From Candidatus Brennerbacteria bacterium RIFOXYC1_FULL_41_11 (GTDB lineage: Bacteria; Patescibacteriota; Minisyncoccia; UBA6257; Brennerbacteraceae), in NCBI GenBank assembly GCA_001817215.1, contig MHHX01000003.1, positions 1 through 34,867 of the forward strand: 34,867 nucleotides of DNA, written 5' to 3'. Shown one piece after another: positions 5,696 to 34,477 of this stretch (the stretch's first letter is position 1; each line of letters starts with the position of its first letter). Both the position numbers and the translations under genes were made by a program. The notes under the pieces were generated by a model that did no database searches, had not been told where the DNA came from, and worked only from the letters and a program-made list of their open reading frames with translations.

Positions 5696-6414
5696 CGCGT
5701 CGTGTTAGGTTTAAAAAACAAATAAGAACTGCCGTCAACCGTAAACGGCAGAAATCCGTAATTCTTTAAAATGCTCACAGCTTTTCCTGTGTGCTTCCTA
5801 GAATATTGGCTAACAGTACCGTGATGGAACTCAACAAAAACCTGGGGGAAAGGCACGAAAAACTCTTTTTTATTGCTGAAAATAAGATCGTATTCAGCTC
5901 CTTCAAGATCAAGCTTCAGGTACTGTGCTCTTTCTGAACCAATTTCTTTCAACAAGGCATTCGGAGTCAGGCTTCTAACCTTATAGGACCTAACCTTATC
6001 AGAGACAACATTTTTATGCTCCGACAACAATGATCCGGAAACGTTATCCTCACTCTCAAAAAATTCAAACTCGCCGTTCTCGAAAGAAACCGCGATCGGC
6101 AAATGGAAAAAGCTATCTTTATAATACGACTCAAGCCGCCTTAACTGTTCTTGGTGTTTTTTTGTCGGATCAATCCCGAAGGATTTGATTCCGTATTTTT
6201 TTATCAATGCCACTGACAAATCGGCATCAAAACCACAGCCAACGTCGATGATGATATCACCGGATTTAAAAATCGGCAAAAAAAGATAGTTCGGTTCGAT
6301 AAAACATATTTTGTGTTTTTTGATCAATCGGCGGTTACGCCACGTCATAAATATTTCTTGATACTCTGAATGTATCCTTTTCATTCTTTTTAAAAATTTA
6401 AACACTTGGATCAT
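5692..6414 (-). CDS. FkbM-family methyltransferase
   Basis: A 240-aa SAM methyltransferase. Motif I is IIIDVGCGFDADLSVAL near residues 55-72, followed by FGIDPTKKHQEQL. The FkbM hallmarks are the central SEDNVSGSLL segment, SLTPNALLKEIG, and LKLDLEGAEYDLI near residues 165-178. FkbM-family enzymes methylate hydroxyls of sugars or natural products, and here a sugar hydroxyl is the likely target. Both ends overlap neighbours by 4 nt, which places it firmly in the glycan operon. Confidence 0.85.
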   Translation of the reverse strand: MIQVFKFLKRMKRIHSEYQEIFMTWRNRRLIKKHKICFIEPNYLFLPIFKSGDIIIDVGCGFDADLSVALIKKYGIKSFGIDPTKKHQEQLRRLESYYKDSFFHLPIAVSFENGEFEFFESEDNVSGSLLSEHKNVVSDKVRSYKVRSLTPNALLKEIGSERAQYLKLDLEGAEYDLIFSNKKEFFVPFPQVFVEFHHGTVSQYSRKHTGKAVSILKNYGFLPFTVDGSSYLFFKPNTTR

Positions 6415-7565
6415 GAGAAAGATTCTAATTCGGGGAATAATTCCAAAAGCGCAACGTCAATGAAAAACTTTGCGGTCCAATTCGGTAAAAAATACGGTGC
6501 ATACTTGCCATCAACGGGCCAAGAGCCCGGGAGAGATCCAAGAAACTCTTTTGAGCCGCCAGTTATCTGTTTTTCGCAAACGTAATCCACCAATCTATTC
6601 GCCTTTCTTAAATATTCTTGATTTTTAATCTTATGATAAAACTTTAAACAAATAATCGCCAACTGCAGATTGCCTACTAAACAAGAATAAGAAACATCAG
6701 CTTTCCAACTTTCATCAAACTCACCGGCCAAGAAGCCATTATTTTTGATCTTCGGAAAAATATTTTTGAAAAACAATTCGATCGATAGAAAAACTCTTTT
6801 TTTCAATTCCAGGTCTTCTATTAACTGTCCCGATTCCCATAAACCACTGATCGTATAACCCATAAGATGAGTCCATGGTCCTGTTTTTGAATCTAGGGCC
6901 ATATTTTCAAACCAACCATTATCTTTTTGTTGAGACAATGTCCATTCAATATTTTTTTGGGCTGATTGATAATACTTTTTTTGACCGAACTCTTGCCAAA
7001 CTAACAAAAGCGCCCAAGCGACTCTGGCTTGATAAGCTTTAGGCTCAAAACCGTCTGCTTCGATCCAAAACCCTTCAGATTTTTGAATCAAGATAAGCCA
7101 ATCGGCTGCTTTTTTTGCCGCTGACAGAAAATCATTCTTGTGCGTAAAGCGATAAAGCGATACTAAACCAAGCATCACCTGTCCAGTATTAAACACCTTT
7201 TGAGAGACCGAACCGTCTTCTTTTTTCTCACCAAAAGAACCGTCTTTATTCTGTACCTTGACCTCCCACTCGCCCATCAAAATCGCCTGGTCAATGAACT
7301 CCTGCTTTTCAAACTTTACGCCATAAGCCAAAAAAGAAGGGATGATATAACCAGTGGTTTCCCGATAGGCTTTTTCCCACTTCTTACTCGTAAGAGAATA
7401 CCCGGCTGACACGCCCTGAAAACTTGTACTTTCGTGGGCAATTTTTAACCAACTAGCTGCCAGGTTTAATCTTTCTGATAAATCAACATCAAGGCGCGGA
7501 AGTCCAAGATACTTTCGCTTAGTCAAAATCTTATTGAATCTGTTTTTGAGTTTATTAAAAATCAT
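6411..7565 (-). CDS. alpha/alpha-toroid protein of the glycan cluster (six-hairpin glycosidase-like)
   Basis: A 384-aa protein without signal peptide or membrane helix. It shows repeating helical hairpins of the (alpha/alpha)6 toroid type, with periodic motifs such as TGQVMLGLVSLYR, AADWLILIQKSEGFW, ARVAWALLLVWQEFG and NIEWTLSQQKDNGWF. The 'Q..DG.F/GWF' pattern at the ends of hairpins resembles six-hairpin glycosidases and terpenoid-cyclase-like toroids. I cannot assign a reaction. Overlaps of 4 nt on both sides tie it to the methyltransferases, so a role in trimming, epimerising or recognising the glycan is plausible but inferred. Confidence 0.6.
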   Translation of the reverse strand: MIFNKLKNRFNKILTKRKYLGLPRLDVDLSERLNLAASWLKIAHESTSFQGVSAGYSLTSKKWEKAYRETTGYIIPSFLAYGVKFEKQEFIDQAILMGEWEVKVQNKDGSFGEKKEDGSVSQKVFNTGQVMLGLVSLYRFTHKNDFLSAAKKAADWLILIQKSEGFWIEADGFEPKAYQARVAWALLLVWQEFGQKKYYQSAQKNIEWTLSQQKDNGWFENMALDSKTGPWTHLMGYTISGLWESGQLIEDLELKKRVFLSIELFFKNIFPKIKNNGFLAGEFDESWKADVSYSCLVGNLQLAIICLKFYHKIKNQEYLRKANRLVDYVCEKQITGGSKEFLGSLPGSWPVDGKYAPYFLPNWTAKFFIDVALLELFPELESFS

Positions 7566-10568: not shown

Positions 10569-10597
10569 TTTACTAGAAAAAATTAGTAAACTATGTT
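10569..10597 (+). promoter_or_regulatory. promoter of orphan gene 10638-10892
   Basis: TTTACT (10569-10574), 17-nt spacer, TATGTT (10592-10597). It is divergent from and close to the tRNA-Thr promoter. The leader is about 35 nt. Confidence 0.5.
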
Positions 10598-10637
10598 AAA
10601 AATACTAACCAAAAATCACTGTTGCCAAGGAGGCACG

Positions 10638-10892
10638 ATGGACCAACAAGCTGTTATCGCATTTCTCAAGAAGAATCACGACAATAAAATAATCATCACG
10701 ACCAGAAATCACCCCGAGCGAGGATGGATGTTATTTTCCGAAAGCGGAGAATCCGTAAACATCGACAGACCATTTTATGACGGAAGCCTTCTTCCAGGTG
10801 GAGTAAGGATCGATAATTTCACCGTCAAACTGCTCTCACTGTATCCGAGCTCCGTCGGCGGCAGGCAGGGTTTTAAAATCTCAATCACGTAA
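10638..10892 (+). CDS. orphan small protein, 84 aa
   Basis: Not recognised. The start is set by a near-perfect SD, AAGGAGG, 5 nt before the ATG at 10638; an earlier in-frame ATG at 10593 lies inside the predicted -10 element and has no SD. The protein (MDQQAVIAFLKKNHDN...) is soluble, with alternating beta-like hydrophobic stretches (KIIITTRN, GWMLFSE, DNFTVKLLSLYP) and no signal peptide. It is a solitary transcription unit with its own promoter and a hairpin terminator just after the stop. It is the opposite of the SD-less minus-strand operons around it. Function unknown. Confidence 0.75.
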   Translation: MDQQAVIAFLKKNHDNKIIITTRNHPERGWMLFSESGESVNIDRPFYDGSLLPGGVRIDNFTVKLLSLYPSSVGGRQGFKISIT

Positions 10893-10959: not shown

Positions 10960-11002
10960 TATCTCAGCAACTAACATTCAATACATGCCACAGGAGGCAA
11001 GA

Positions 11003-11275
11003 ATGACTATTCCAGAATTTGTTCTCTATGGATTATCAAATCCAAGATTTGATGTTTTTTTAATCTGGGATGAAAAAGATGAGGCGCATAGGATCTATCG
11101 GGAGATTGATGATCAATTCTTGGATATTGGACAATCCGGGATACTGTTGGTCAAAAAATCCAACAAAGTAGAACATGGCACCCTGATCTGCACAGGCGTT
11201 AGAGGAACAGAACAAGACCTCTTTGGACGAAAAGTATGCTTTATCGGAAAATTTTCTTTCCAGAGCAAAAACTGA
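11003..11275 (+). CDS. orphan small protein, 90 aa
   Basis: Not recognised. The SD CAGGAGGCAAGA places the start at the ATG at 11003 (MTIPEFVLYGLSN...). The upstream in-frame ATG at 10985 lies before the SD and is rejected. The protein is soluble and acidic in its first half (FLIWDEKDEAHRIYREIDD). The second half has beta-like segments (GILLVKKSNK, GTLICTGVRG, KVCFIGKFSF). No signal peptide is seen. It is a second solitary cassette with its own promoter and a shared bidirectional terminator. There is no visible similarity to the neighbouring orphan beyond the architecture. Confidence 0.75.
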   Translation: MTIPEFVLYGLSNPRFDVFLIWDEKDEAHRIYREIDDQFLDIGQSGILLVKKSNKVEHGTLICTGVRGTEQDLFGRKVCFIGKFSFQSKN

Positions 11276-11283
11276 GCCAACAA

Positions 11284-11320
11284 AAAAACAGAGTCGCTAT
11301 TTAGCGACTCTGTTTTTATT
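11284..11320. terminator. bidirectional terminator between convergent orphan genes
   Basis: AACAGAGTCGC and GCGACTCTGTT form a perfect stem around a short TATTTA loop, with an A-run on the left and a T-run on the right. It serves the plus-strand gene ending at 11275 and the minus-strand gene ending at 11316. Confidence 0.85.
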
Positions 11321-11543
11321 TGGCATGAATGCCGGAAACTGTCACGTTGCAACCTGACAGAGCATTACGGCAATGCCTTCCTCGACCGTAAGTACCCGTG
11401 CAGGTATCGCAACCACAATCGCAAATATCCTTCTCTTTTTTATCAGAACCCTGCGGCTTCACATCAAGAGAATTCACGAGAGATGCGAAGTTTCTGGAAT
11501 CATCATAATCTTCCCAGGACTTAAGACTTGGATATTTTTTCAT
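11316..11543 (-). CDS. cysteine-rich small peptide, possible modified-peptide precursor
   Basis: A 75-aa peptide. Residues 1-39 are charged and cysteine-free, like a leader (MKKYPSLKSWEDYDDSRNFA...). Residues 40-75 carry all six cysteines (41, 43, 45, 48, 58, 65) in the pattern CxCxCxxC-x9-C-x6-C, with Gly, Thr and Ser between them. A strong SD (AAAGGAG, 8 nt before the ATG) and a good promoter support it. No signal peptide is present. The two-part layout resembles ribosomally made, post-translationally modified peptide precursors. A small metal-binding protein is equally possible. No radical SAM or other maturase gene lies in this window. Confidence 0.75.
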   Translation of the reverse strand: MKKYPSLKSWEDYDDSRNFASLVNSLDVKPQGSDKKEKDICDCGCDTCTGTYGRGRHCRNALSGCNVTVSGIHAK

Positions 11544-11564
11544 AGCATCAACTCCTTTACTAAT

Positions 11565-11593
11565 AACTTAAAGAATTATTAAAAGTTTGTAAA
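11565..11593 (-). promoter_or_regulatory. promoter of the cysteine-rich peptide gene
   Basis: On the minus strand, TTTACA (11588-11593), 17-nt spacer, TAAGTT (11565-11570). The leader contains the strong SD. murF, which ends at 11658, has no visible terminator, so read-through could add to expression. Confidence 0.5.
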
Positions 11594-12968: not shown

Positions 12969-13808
12969 TTACAGTATTTGTGTTTCTAAAAATCTCTTTT
13001 TCAGCACTTCAATATCCTTTTCGACATACTCCGGAATAAAAATATTTTTCAGGTTTTCTTTCGGAAAGCCAAGTTCTTCTTGAGAAAAAACCAAAGCTTG
13101 TTTCGGTCCGGAAAATTGATATTGAAAATATTTATCCATAACGTTCCATGCCAAGATTTTACTCTTCGGAGGCTCGCCGTCTTTCAAAACTTGAAACGGG
13201 TCAACAACCGACACCGAACCACTGTCAAAACCATCAAGAAGCACCACGTGCCTGCCTTTCTCAACACCAAAATCTGGGTACAGCTTCTTCAGAAGTTCTT
13301 TTTCTCCGCTATCAAGAGTTTGTTCCAAGATAAAACGGTTATCAAGAGACAAGGCTAAAAATGATTTTTTCCCGGGAATCATATCAAAAAGCTGGTCAAT
13401 ACCGGAAAAGTTATGTAAAGAATGAACCTTGACGCCAAAAATATTTAAAAATGCTGCAACCGCATGATGATAAGTATTCCCCAGTGGATCAACAATTCGC
13501 CAACCCATATCATAAGGCTTTGGCAATCCGCTTGGCTCAACCTTGTGAAACGGCAACGTTATTCTATAAAAATCTCCGACGACAATGTCTCCATCTTTAT
13601 CGCCGATAACTCGTGAATCAAAAATGAAATTAATTGCCATGCAAGCTACGGTCGGCAAACAAATCTTCCTGACCAAAGATTGACTGCTTTTTCCTTGTAA
13701 ACAATCTAATCCCGTGACATTATGTCGTTCCGTCCGAAAAAAACTTTCAAGAGCCGTTGCCACTCCGTCCGCGGCTCTAAACTGGTTTAAAAAGAGACTT
13801 TCTTTCAT
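12969..13808 (-). CDS. C39-like cysteine peptidase-fold protein inside the dcw cluster
   Basis: A 279-aa protein. KICLPTVACMAINFIF at residues 49-64 matches the C39-like pattern C-x-P-x-x-x-x-M, with Cys50 as candidate nucleophile. GRHVVLLDGFDSGSVSVVDPF at residues 186-205 supplies the expected His187 and Asp203. No signal peptide or transmembrane helix is apparent, so it looks cytoplasmic. The start overlaps the ftsI stop (TAATG), so it is translationally coupled to the septal transpeptidase. A peptidase or transglutaminase-like role in wall assembly is possible but inferred. It occupies a place where murE is common in other dcw clusters. Confidence 0.65.
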   Translation of the reverse strand: MKESLFLNQFRAADGVATALESFFRTERHNVTGLDCLQGKSSQSLVRKICLPTVACMAINFIFDSRVIGDKDGDIVVGDFYRITLPFHKVEPSGLPKPYDMGWRIVDPLGNTYHHAVAAFLNIFGVKVHSLHNFSGIDQLFDMIPGKKSFLALSLDNRFILEQTLDSGEKELLKKLYPDFGVEKGRHVVLLDGFDSGSVSVVDPFQVLKDGEPPKSKILAWNVMDKYFQYQFSGPKQALVFSQEELGFPKENLKNIFIPEYVEKDIEVLKKRFLETQIL

Positions 13809-23696: not shown

Positions 23697-24689
23697 TTAC
23701 CTAGGCGGTGAGTTGAACTCTCCTGGCTCGAACTCAGCCTCACTGCAAGAGTTGTAAATCTTGACCCTCCAACCTCTGTTTGCAAGATCCGGAGGGATTT
23801 TTGGCAAAGCGTTCTTATATTTCCCATCAAAAGCGCCACCGAAATTTCCGGGCATGCCGTTGTAAACATACGCCCAGATCATCACGCCGATATCCTGGTA
23901 ATCACGTGTCAGGGTGTGAATCCACCACCAGACGCGACGAACAACTCCATTGGCGTCAACGTACGCCCCGCAAACAGGAGGTTCGCCATCCCACCCACCA
24001 TTACTGGAACCGCCCGCTGCCACATTGGCCTTGGCCCTGGCAAAACGGTCAATCAAGGCGTTCGTCGCTAGGTTAGCGAAGGTTCCTGAAACATATGGGC
24101 TGTGCTCATCCGAAGAGTGGACTCGGTGAGGTTTCATGGCTTGAGCTTCAATGGACTGACGCGCCAGATCATTGTAATAGGCTAGTTTGGGATCATCGGG
24201 CATTGATGATGTCAGAACACACAAAATCAAGAGCCCAGTCAGTGGCGCGCCGATAATAATAACCGGCGACAACGTAATACCAGCTGCCACAGCTGTTGTT
24301 TCCGCAGCAGCCAATCCTGTCGCCTCAACCACCACAACGGTCTCTGCCGCAAACAACGACTCAGCCAAACCAATCGCTCCAACTGACGGCACGAAAGACC
24401 ACATCTCGTCCCCATCTTCAGTCACGAAATAGGAGTAGATGGTTTTTGAGGCATTCGTGGGCCAGTAATCTACTGACGGCGCTGGTGTACCCTCAGTACC
24501 TGGAGCAAAACTCCACTGCGAAGTGCTTAGATCAGCCGAATTGCCAGTAACGGCTGGCCAGTGAATCTGTTGCCAGTAATTCCCATACATCAAGGCAAGG
24601 CAGATGAACACACTGCCATCGGAACTCTCAGAAACCATCGAAGTTTCAGAGCACGGCTGGTCTTGCGCCACGGCATTTTTCATCTCCAT
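23697..24689 (-). CDS. large orphan protein with one hydrophobic segment, 330 aa
   Basis: Not recognised. Residues 1-125 are polar and aromatic (YGNYWQQIHWPAVTGNSADL, WSFAPGTEGTPAPSVDYWP). A long hydrophobic stretch follows at about 110-165, ending in SPVIIIGAPLTGLLILCVLT. The C-terminal 165 residues are soluble and rich in Trp, Gly and Asn (NGGWDGEPPVCGAYVDANG, RRVWWWIHTLTRDYQD). It is markedly richer in G+C than its neighbours, suggesting transfer. The start is uncertain: GGAG lies between two in-frame ATGs and best fits an out-of-frame ATG at 24676. A later in-frame ATG at 24590 is another candidate. Confidence 0.6.
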   Translation of the reverse strand: MEMKNAVAQDQPCSETSMVSESSDGSVFICLALMYGNYWQQIHWPAVTGNSADLSTSQWSFAPGTEGTPAPSVDYWPTNASKTIYSYFVTEDGDEMWSFVPSVGAIGLAESLFAAETVVVVEATGLAAAETTAVAAGITLSPVIIIGAPLTGLLILCVLTSSMPDDPKLAYYNDLARQSIEAQAMKPHRVHSSDEHSPYVSGTFANLATNALIDRFARAKANVAAGGSSNGGWDGEPPVCGAYVDANGVVRRVWWWIHTLTRDYQDIGVMIWAYVYNGMPGNFGGAFDGKYKNALPKIPPDLANRGWRVKIYNSCSEAEFEPGEFNSPPR

Positions 24690-34186: not shown

Positions 34187-34477
34187 TTATTTCTTTGTAT
34201 TATTTTTCTTTGCTTCTTTGACTCGGGTCTGATTTTTCTCTTTTTTCGTTATGGGTTTCAATGATTTCAGCTGTTTCGATCTCGCAACTTTTGCCTGATA
34301 CTTATCAACTCTACCGGCGGCATCAATTAATTTATCTTTGCCGGTAAAAAAAGGATGGCACTGAGAACAAACTTCAACTTCAATCATCGGTTTAGTAGCG
34401 CCAACCTCAAAAATAGCGCCGCAGGCACACTTAATCTTCGCATCTGAATAGTATTGAGGATGAATATCTTTTTTCAT
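34187..34477 (-). CDS. rpmE: 50S ribosomal protein L31
   Basis: A 96-aa L31. The zinc-ribbon cysteines are present (KCACGAIF and CSQCHPFFTGK), so this is the C+ form. MKKDIHPQYY is the usual start. A basic C-terminal extension (SLKPITKKEKNQTRVKEAKK) makes it longer than the usual 65-75 aa. It lies directly upstream of prfA, a common pairing. No SD. Confidence 0.95.
   Translation of the reverse strand: MKKDIHPQYYSDAKIKCACGAIFEVGATKPMIEVEVCSQCHPFFTGKDKLIDAAGRVDKYQAKVARSKQLKSLKPITKKEKNQTRVKEAKKNNTKK

Follow-up and report, generated by a model that had tools for sequence, protein, structure and literature searches.

The window, that is, the whole 34,867-nt stretch of DNA that was analysed, carries on its minus strand a short gene for a cysteine-rich peptide. 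The features of this gene, two of which are defined by comparison with the relatives described below, are the following:

11316 to 11543, minus strand: coding sequence of 75 aa (MKKYPSLKSWEDYDDSRNFASLVNSLDVKPQGSDKKEKDICDCGCDTCTGTYGRGRHCRNALSGCNVTVSGIHAK), ATG start and TAA stop, from the ORF list and the synonymous codon score of both halves.
11349 to 11423, minus strand: Cys/His core, residues 41-65 (CDCGCDTCTGTYGRGRHCRNALSGC), with a spacing common to the relatives L047a and L061.
11424 to 11543, minus strand: charged N-terminal segment without cysteine, residues 1-40, which differs from that of the relatives.
11552 to 11558, minus strand: Shine-Dalgarno sequence AAAGGAG, 8 nt 5′ of the ATG, from reading of the sequence.
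11284 to 11317, minus strand: intrinsic terminator hairpin from the stop codon on, from its fold (z = -8.0) and its sequence.

The translation has cysteines at positions 41, 43, 45, 48, 58 and 65 and histidines at positions 57 and 73. An earlier sequence-only reading of this DNA had described a 75-aa peptide with all six cysteines in the last 35 residues, a charged N-terminal half free of cysteine and a strong Shine-Dalgarno sequence, and all of this was borne out by the ORF, whose first 40 residues contain no cysteine. The same reading had placed the gene at 11316-11593; the ORF itself ends at 11543 and the remaining ∼50 nt are upstream sequence. Inside the core, six cysteines fall within 25 residues and form two overlapping CxC and one CxxC. 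Cysteine accounts for 8% of the peptide compared to 0.8% across the proteins of the window, and the window contains one ATG-started ORF of at least 60 aa with at least six cysteines within 35 residues, against 0.12 in dinucleotide-shuffled sequences.

Synonymous codon use gave 0.094 bits per codon for the peptide gene (0.06 and 0.11 in its two halves) compared to 0.10-0.17 in the three neighbouring genes compared, with murF at 0.13, ftsI at 0.10 and the opposite-strand ORF at -0.13. The total codon log-odds of the gene is weak, as the training genes contain few cysteine codons. The terminator has a stem of 15 pairs, whose first bases overlap the TAA stop, and T-runs on both sides; because of this symmetry, with a T-run on either strand, it can also act as terminator of the convergent plus-strand ORF at 10985-11275. 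From these results we concluded that the ORF is a real stand-alone gene. The sequence-only reading had also given the gene its own promoter, and this claim was not supported: a sigma-70 consensus scan showed no site upstream of the gene and no more sites in the region than in shuffled sequence, so that the promoter is unproven. By reading of the sequence, no signal peptide, membrane segment or GG cleavage site is apparent in the peptide. An AlphaFold2 single-sequence model had a mean pLDDT of 48.6 and provided no usable structure.

The division and cell-wall cluster mraZ-mraW-(15619 ORF)-ftsI-(C39-like ORF)-murF lies upstream of the gene, and tRNA-Thr and a polysaccharide flippase lie downstream of it. 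In G005, a genome of the same GTDB family, murF and the flippase are 67% and 62% identical to those of the window and their order is kept, and small ORFs other than the peptide gene occupy the interval between them. The five other genomes of the family yielded no relative of the peptide, and the DNA that the region has in common with them is limited to murF and the tRNA sequence. Since the flanks are conserved in G005 and the peptide is not, the gene appears as an addition to a variable spot between operons, outside any conserved cluster. Two plus-strand ORFs at 10593-10892 and 10985-11275, each with a Shine-Dalgarno sequence, are convergent with the peptide gene; neither matched any profile and their coding scores are ambiguous. 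Between ftsI and murF, the C39-like ORF (12969-13808, minus strand, 279 aa) showed a sub-threshold match to Peptidase_C39_2 (E = 0.13) and has Cys/His/Asp motifs that could be read as the active site of a C39-like enzyme. Its counterpart occupies the same place in G002 (37% identical) and is absent at that place in G005.

Searches against known families gave no credible match. Neither the peptide, nor its core, nor L047a or L061 matched Pfam at E ≤ 10, and NCBIfam, PHROGs and PADLOC gave no matches to the peptide. No credible match was obtained by phmmer among PDB sequences, where the best matches, to the designed propeller SAKe6BE, were summed sub-threshold repeats, and profile A5 matched no PDB chain. 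Hence, in Pfam and the PDB, no zinc-binding domain profile or solved structure matches the peptide. Translated searches (tblastn) of phages and plasmids yielded no match at E ≤ 1; of the low-scoring matches, the one whose annotated ORF was read (H5) lacks the motif, and a phage match (H1) runs antisense to the annotated gene. Viral contigs provided no confirmed relative.

We searched for relatives of the peptide across ∼900 genomes of the order, the class and the phylum. Single-sequence searches of 60-61 relatives and of 244 genomes of the order returned nothing credible, with no match at E ≤ 0.001, and no close orthologue turned up. In the class (384 genomes), a weak match (E = 0.035) in G401 corresponds to L047a (MAKKEINAMTFGSRDATKLPSRVCDCPCKRCDDQGHCGKAQTGCDALVRVPRR), an intact 53-aa gene with two stacked AGGAGATGAG before its ATG and a hairpin after its stop codon. 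Directly upstream lies a second short ORF, L047b (ICRCLHCDRSPTHCGVSQDSCWC), which was located by its position, independently of similarity; it keeps CxCxxC, HC and Cx6C and is a degenerate paralogue of L047a. A search of 380 phylum genomes with a profile that included L047a and L047b then gave L061 (MNWLLAFLFGLRDDGGVCTCSCPGCEAETYHCRNRERGCNR) in G703, a gene with a GTG start, an AGGAGG and a hairpin past its stop codon. The peptide, L047a and L061 have in common the spacing C-x-C-x-C-x2-C-x(4-8)-HC-x6-C, which in extended form reads [IV]C-x-C-x-C-x2-C-x(4-8)-HC-x6-C-[ND]. A Shine-Dalgarno sequence precedes all four genes, and a hairpin follows each single gene and the L047 pair. The N-termini differ among the four, so that the alignment is restricted to the Cys/His core. 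The sequence-only reading had proposed to look in relatives for conserved cysteines behind a variable leader, and this is the pattern that the few relatives show: the whole sequence is not equally kept and matches no known zinc domain, and some relatives do keep the cysteines.

By E-values alone, no relative is significant, and the relatives are few and very divergent. The strict motif would be expected by chance ∼0.05-0.07 times in a six-frame translation of 700 Mb (an estimate from ∼900 genomes of ∼0.75 Mb each) and was found twice besides the peptide itself, a figure that is supportive and short of conclusive, since the motif was fixed after the matches had been seen and the matches had been chosen for similarity. 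The peptide, L047a and L061 score higher when aligned to one another than when aligned to core-shuffled versions (P = 0.0005-0.001), values that are flattered because L047a and L061 were picked for similarity; L047b against L047a also exceeded core-shuffled versions (P = 0.003). A looser version of the motif recovered, in the loci retrieved up to that point, no short open segment other than these four, and a profile re-search of the 384 class genomes yielded no further credible member. Taken together, these findings suggest that the peptide and its few relatives form a sparse, undescribed putative family.

Several other candidates were inspected and set aside. A GTDB-wide scan gave two matches, of which L003 is a frame overlapping an opposite-strand ORF of annotated size in a high-GC actinobacterium, and L002 is an exact match of 13 residues (DYDDSRNFASLVN, at 2562-2600) between the N-terminal half of the peptide and the TerB_N domain of a TerB_N/TerB_C protein of a spirochaete. 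As nothing else aligns, the latter identity is probably a coincidence. In L018, from G193, the Cys-rich stretch forms the tail of a membrane protein and lacks the HCx6C part, and many other weak matches were in the wrong frame or contained stops. L040 (1507-1692 in G485:C2) is a stand-alone gene for a 61-aa peptide with ten cysteines, a Shine-Dalgarno-like GAGG and a perfect terminator. It resembles the peptide and neither L047a nor L061 (P = 0.17 and 0.99), and was left out of the family for this reason; its sequence is not clearly related to that of the peptide.

On balance, we lean towards reading the peptide as a small, probably cytosolic metal-binding protein, most likely of zinc, encoded by a stand-alone gene and sharing its ligand spacing with its relatives. 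The C-terminal half would be a compact metal-binding unit made of the CxCxCxxC cysteines, the HC and the last cysteine of Cx6C, and the variable charged N-terminal half could act as a linker or as a tail that binds a partner. The six cysteines and one histidine could offer as many as seven ligands, which would suffice to hold one or two zinc ions or a small cluster of copper. The protein might then function as a tiny structural-zinc or metal-buffering protein. Clusters of the CxCxCxxC type are usual in metal sites and unusual in disulfide peptides. The spacing is kept and the flanks are not, an export signal is not apparent, and neither maturase nor thioredoxin was detected, a combination that suits a metal site more than it does a modified or disulfide-bonded peptide. 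We infer metal binding, the identity of the metal, the location of the protein and its biological role from these sequence features; L061 has a hydrophobic N-terminus, so that location may differ between members. Of the two readings that had been offered from the sequence, a metal-binding peptide and a RiPP precursor, the first thus gained support, indirectly, through the CxCxCxxC / HC / Cx6C ligand spacing of the relatives, and the second did not.

A possibility that we take seriously, though we do not favour it, is that the gene is an orphan with a Cys-rich tail, recent or evolving very fast, and that the spacing of L047a and L061 reflects convergence or coincidence; metal or thiol chemistry would still be possible for such a gene. 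The lack of a match in the family and of any below the threshold in the 60 relatives and the order speaks for this explanation, as do the E-values of L047a and L061, which are at chance level across some 380 genomes each, and the profile re-search, which brought nothing new. Against it, L047a and L061 both unite the strict spacing, an intact short ORF, a Shine-Dalgarno sequence and a terminator at so low a chance expectation, and none of the other weak matches inspected combines these traits.

It is improbable that the peptide is a secreted disulfide-rich bacteriocin or effector. Its small size and even number of cysteines would suit such a role, but the signal peptide or GG site is missing by reading, the CxCxCxxC cluster points the other way, and no thioredoxin-family protein was detected in a genome search limited to that family. 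Equally doubtful is the idea that the peptide and its few relatives are scattered fast-turnover peptides of tiny-genome bacteria, which would be exported to a partner cell and have their Cys/His core cross-linked or loaded with metal, either by an unknown enzyme or by one that the partner supplies.

The proposal that the peptide is a RiPP precursor, with residues 1-40 as leader and the Cys-rich tail as core, seems to us very unlikely. It has in its favour a leader-core layout recognizable by eye, and graspetide clusters have been described in bacteria of the candidate phyla radiation (PMC8939145). The sequence-only reading had called for a genome-wide search for radical SAM, YcaO and thiol-disulfide enzymes, and radical SAM (PF04055), YcaO (PF02624) and thioredoxin were all undetectable in the 608-kb genome (96.5% complete, so that 3.5% may be missing), in a search that covered these three families. 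No maturase or exporter adjoins this isolated gene, and among the relatives it is the Cys spacing that is conserved and not the presumed leader. The statement that the window holds no maturase also withstood scrutiny. Its sole candidate, the minus-strand ORF at 6411-7565, is a weak LANC_like match (27.2 bits against a Pfam cut-off of 23.2) that also passes the cut-off of C5-epim_C, scores better there, is surrounded by glycosyltransferases and methyltransferases and lacks the zinc-ligand Cys-His-Gly (CHG) motif. For these reasons we read it as an alpha/alpha-toroid carbohydrate enzyme and rejected a lanthipeptide route. The C39-like ORF does not help the proposal either, since G002 keeps it in place and yet yielded no relative of the peptide, and the two are therefore not linked. 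On present evidence, with these enzymes undetected and the LanC-like match explained otherwise, a RiPP precursor is unlikely.

Also very improbable is a functional transcript, either a structured small RNA or an attenuator in which the ORF is incidental: the 3′ part and the terminator fold strongly (z = -5.8), but without the terminator the fold reaches only z = -2.2, no Rfam family comes near its gathering score, the Shine-Dalgarno sequence and gene-like codon use are present, and no co-oriented gene lies directly past the terminator to be attenuated.

Among known systems, bacterial metallothioneins of the SmtA type (PF02069) resemble the peptide in being small, with CxC, CxxC and His in a short Cys-dense stretch, and in the presumed role of a cytosolic metal ligand. 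Unlike them, the peptide shows no match to the profile even at E = 10, has a different spacing and only six cysteines, and carries a Cys-free N-terminal half with Trp, Tyr and Phe. RiPP precursors (lanthipeptides, sactipeptides and CPR graspetides) have, like it, a charged N-terminus free of cysteine and a Cys-rich part at the C-terminal end; in contrast to them, the peptide has no maturase cluster, radical SAM or YcaO, no conserved leader and no GG cleavage site. A small zinc-ribbon-like protein of 98 aa lies in G005 between murF and the flippase (L011, 6438-6734) and is, like the peptide, short, Cys-containing and encoded on the murF strand between the same flanking genes. Its similarity to the peptide is no greater than composition would give (P = 0.46), and it has paired CxxC knuckles (CxxC...CxxC) whereas the peptide has CxCxCxxC...HCx6C. 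Ribosomal protein L31 of the window (34187-34477; CxC...CxxC) is also small, and its cysteines presumably bind zinc, but it belongs to a defined Pfam family (PF01197) and bears no similarity to the peptide.

Genomes of ∼0.6 Mb carry few dispensable genes, and yet this one encodes a six-cysteine miniprotein with its own ribosome-binding site and terminator, whose Cys/His spacing recurs, if rarely, across the phylum. The description of the host as an ultra-small bacterium agrees with its genome size, and the genomes of its relatives are mostly 0.5-1.4 Mb. Should the peptide bind metal, it would represent a minimal, 25-residue metal site that belongs to no metallothionein or zinc-finger family described so far, and would hint at the way in which such cells keep zinc or copper. 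Should its resemblance to the relatives be coincidental, the gene would simply add to the orphan small genes. The case also illustrates the ease with which a Cys-rich ORF is mistaken for a RiPP precursor where the genome has no maturase. Elsewhere in the window, the minus-strand ORF at 23697-24689 encodes a protein of 330 aa that contains Cys and Trp, has no Pfam match and carries a hydrophobic stretch in its middle; it is possibly a surface or secreted protein.
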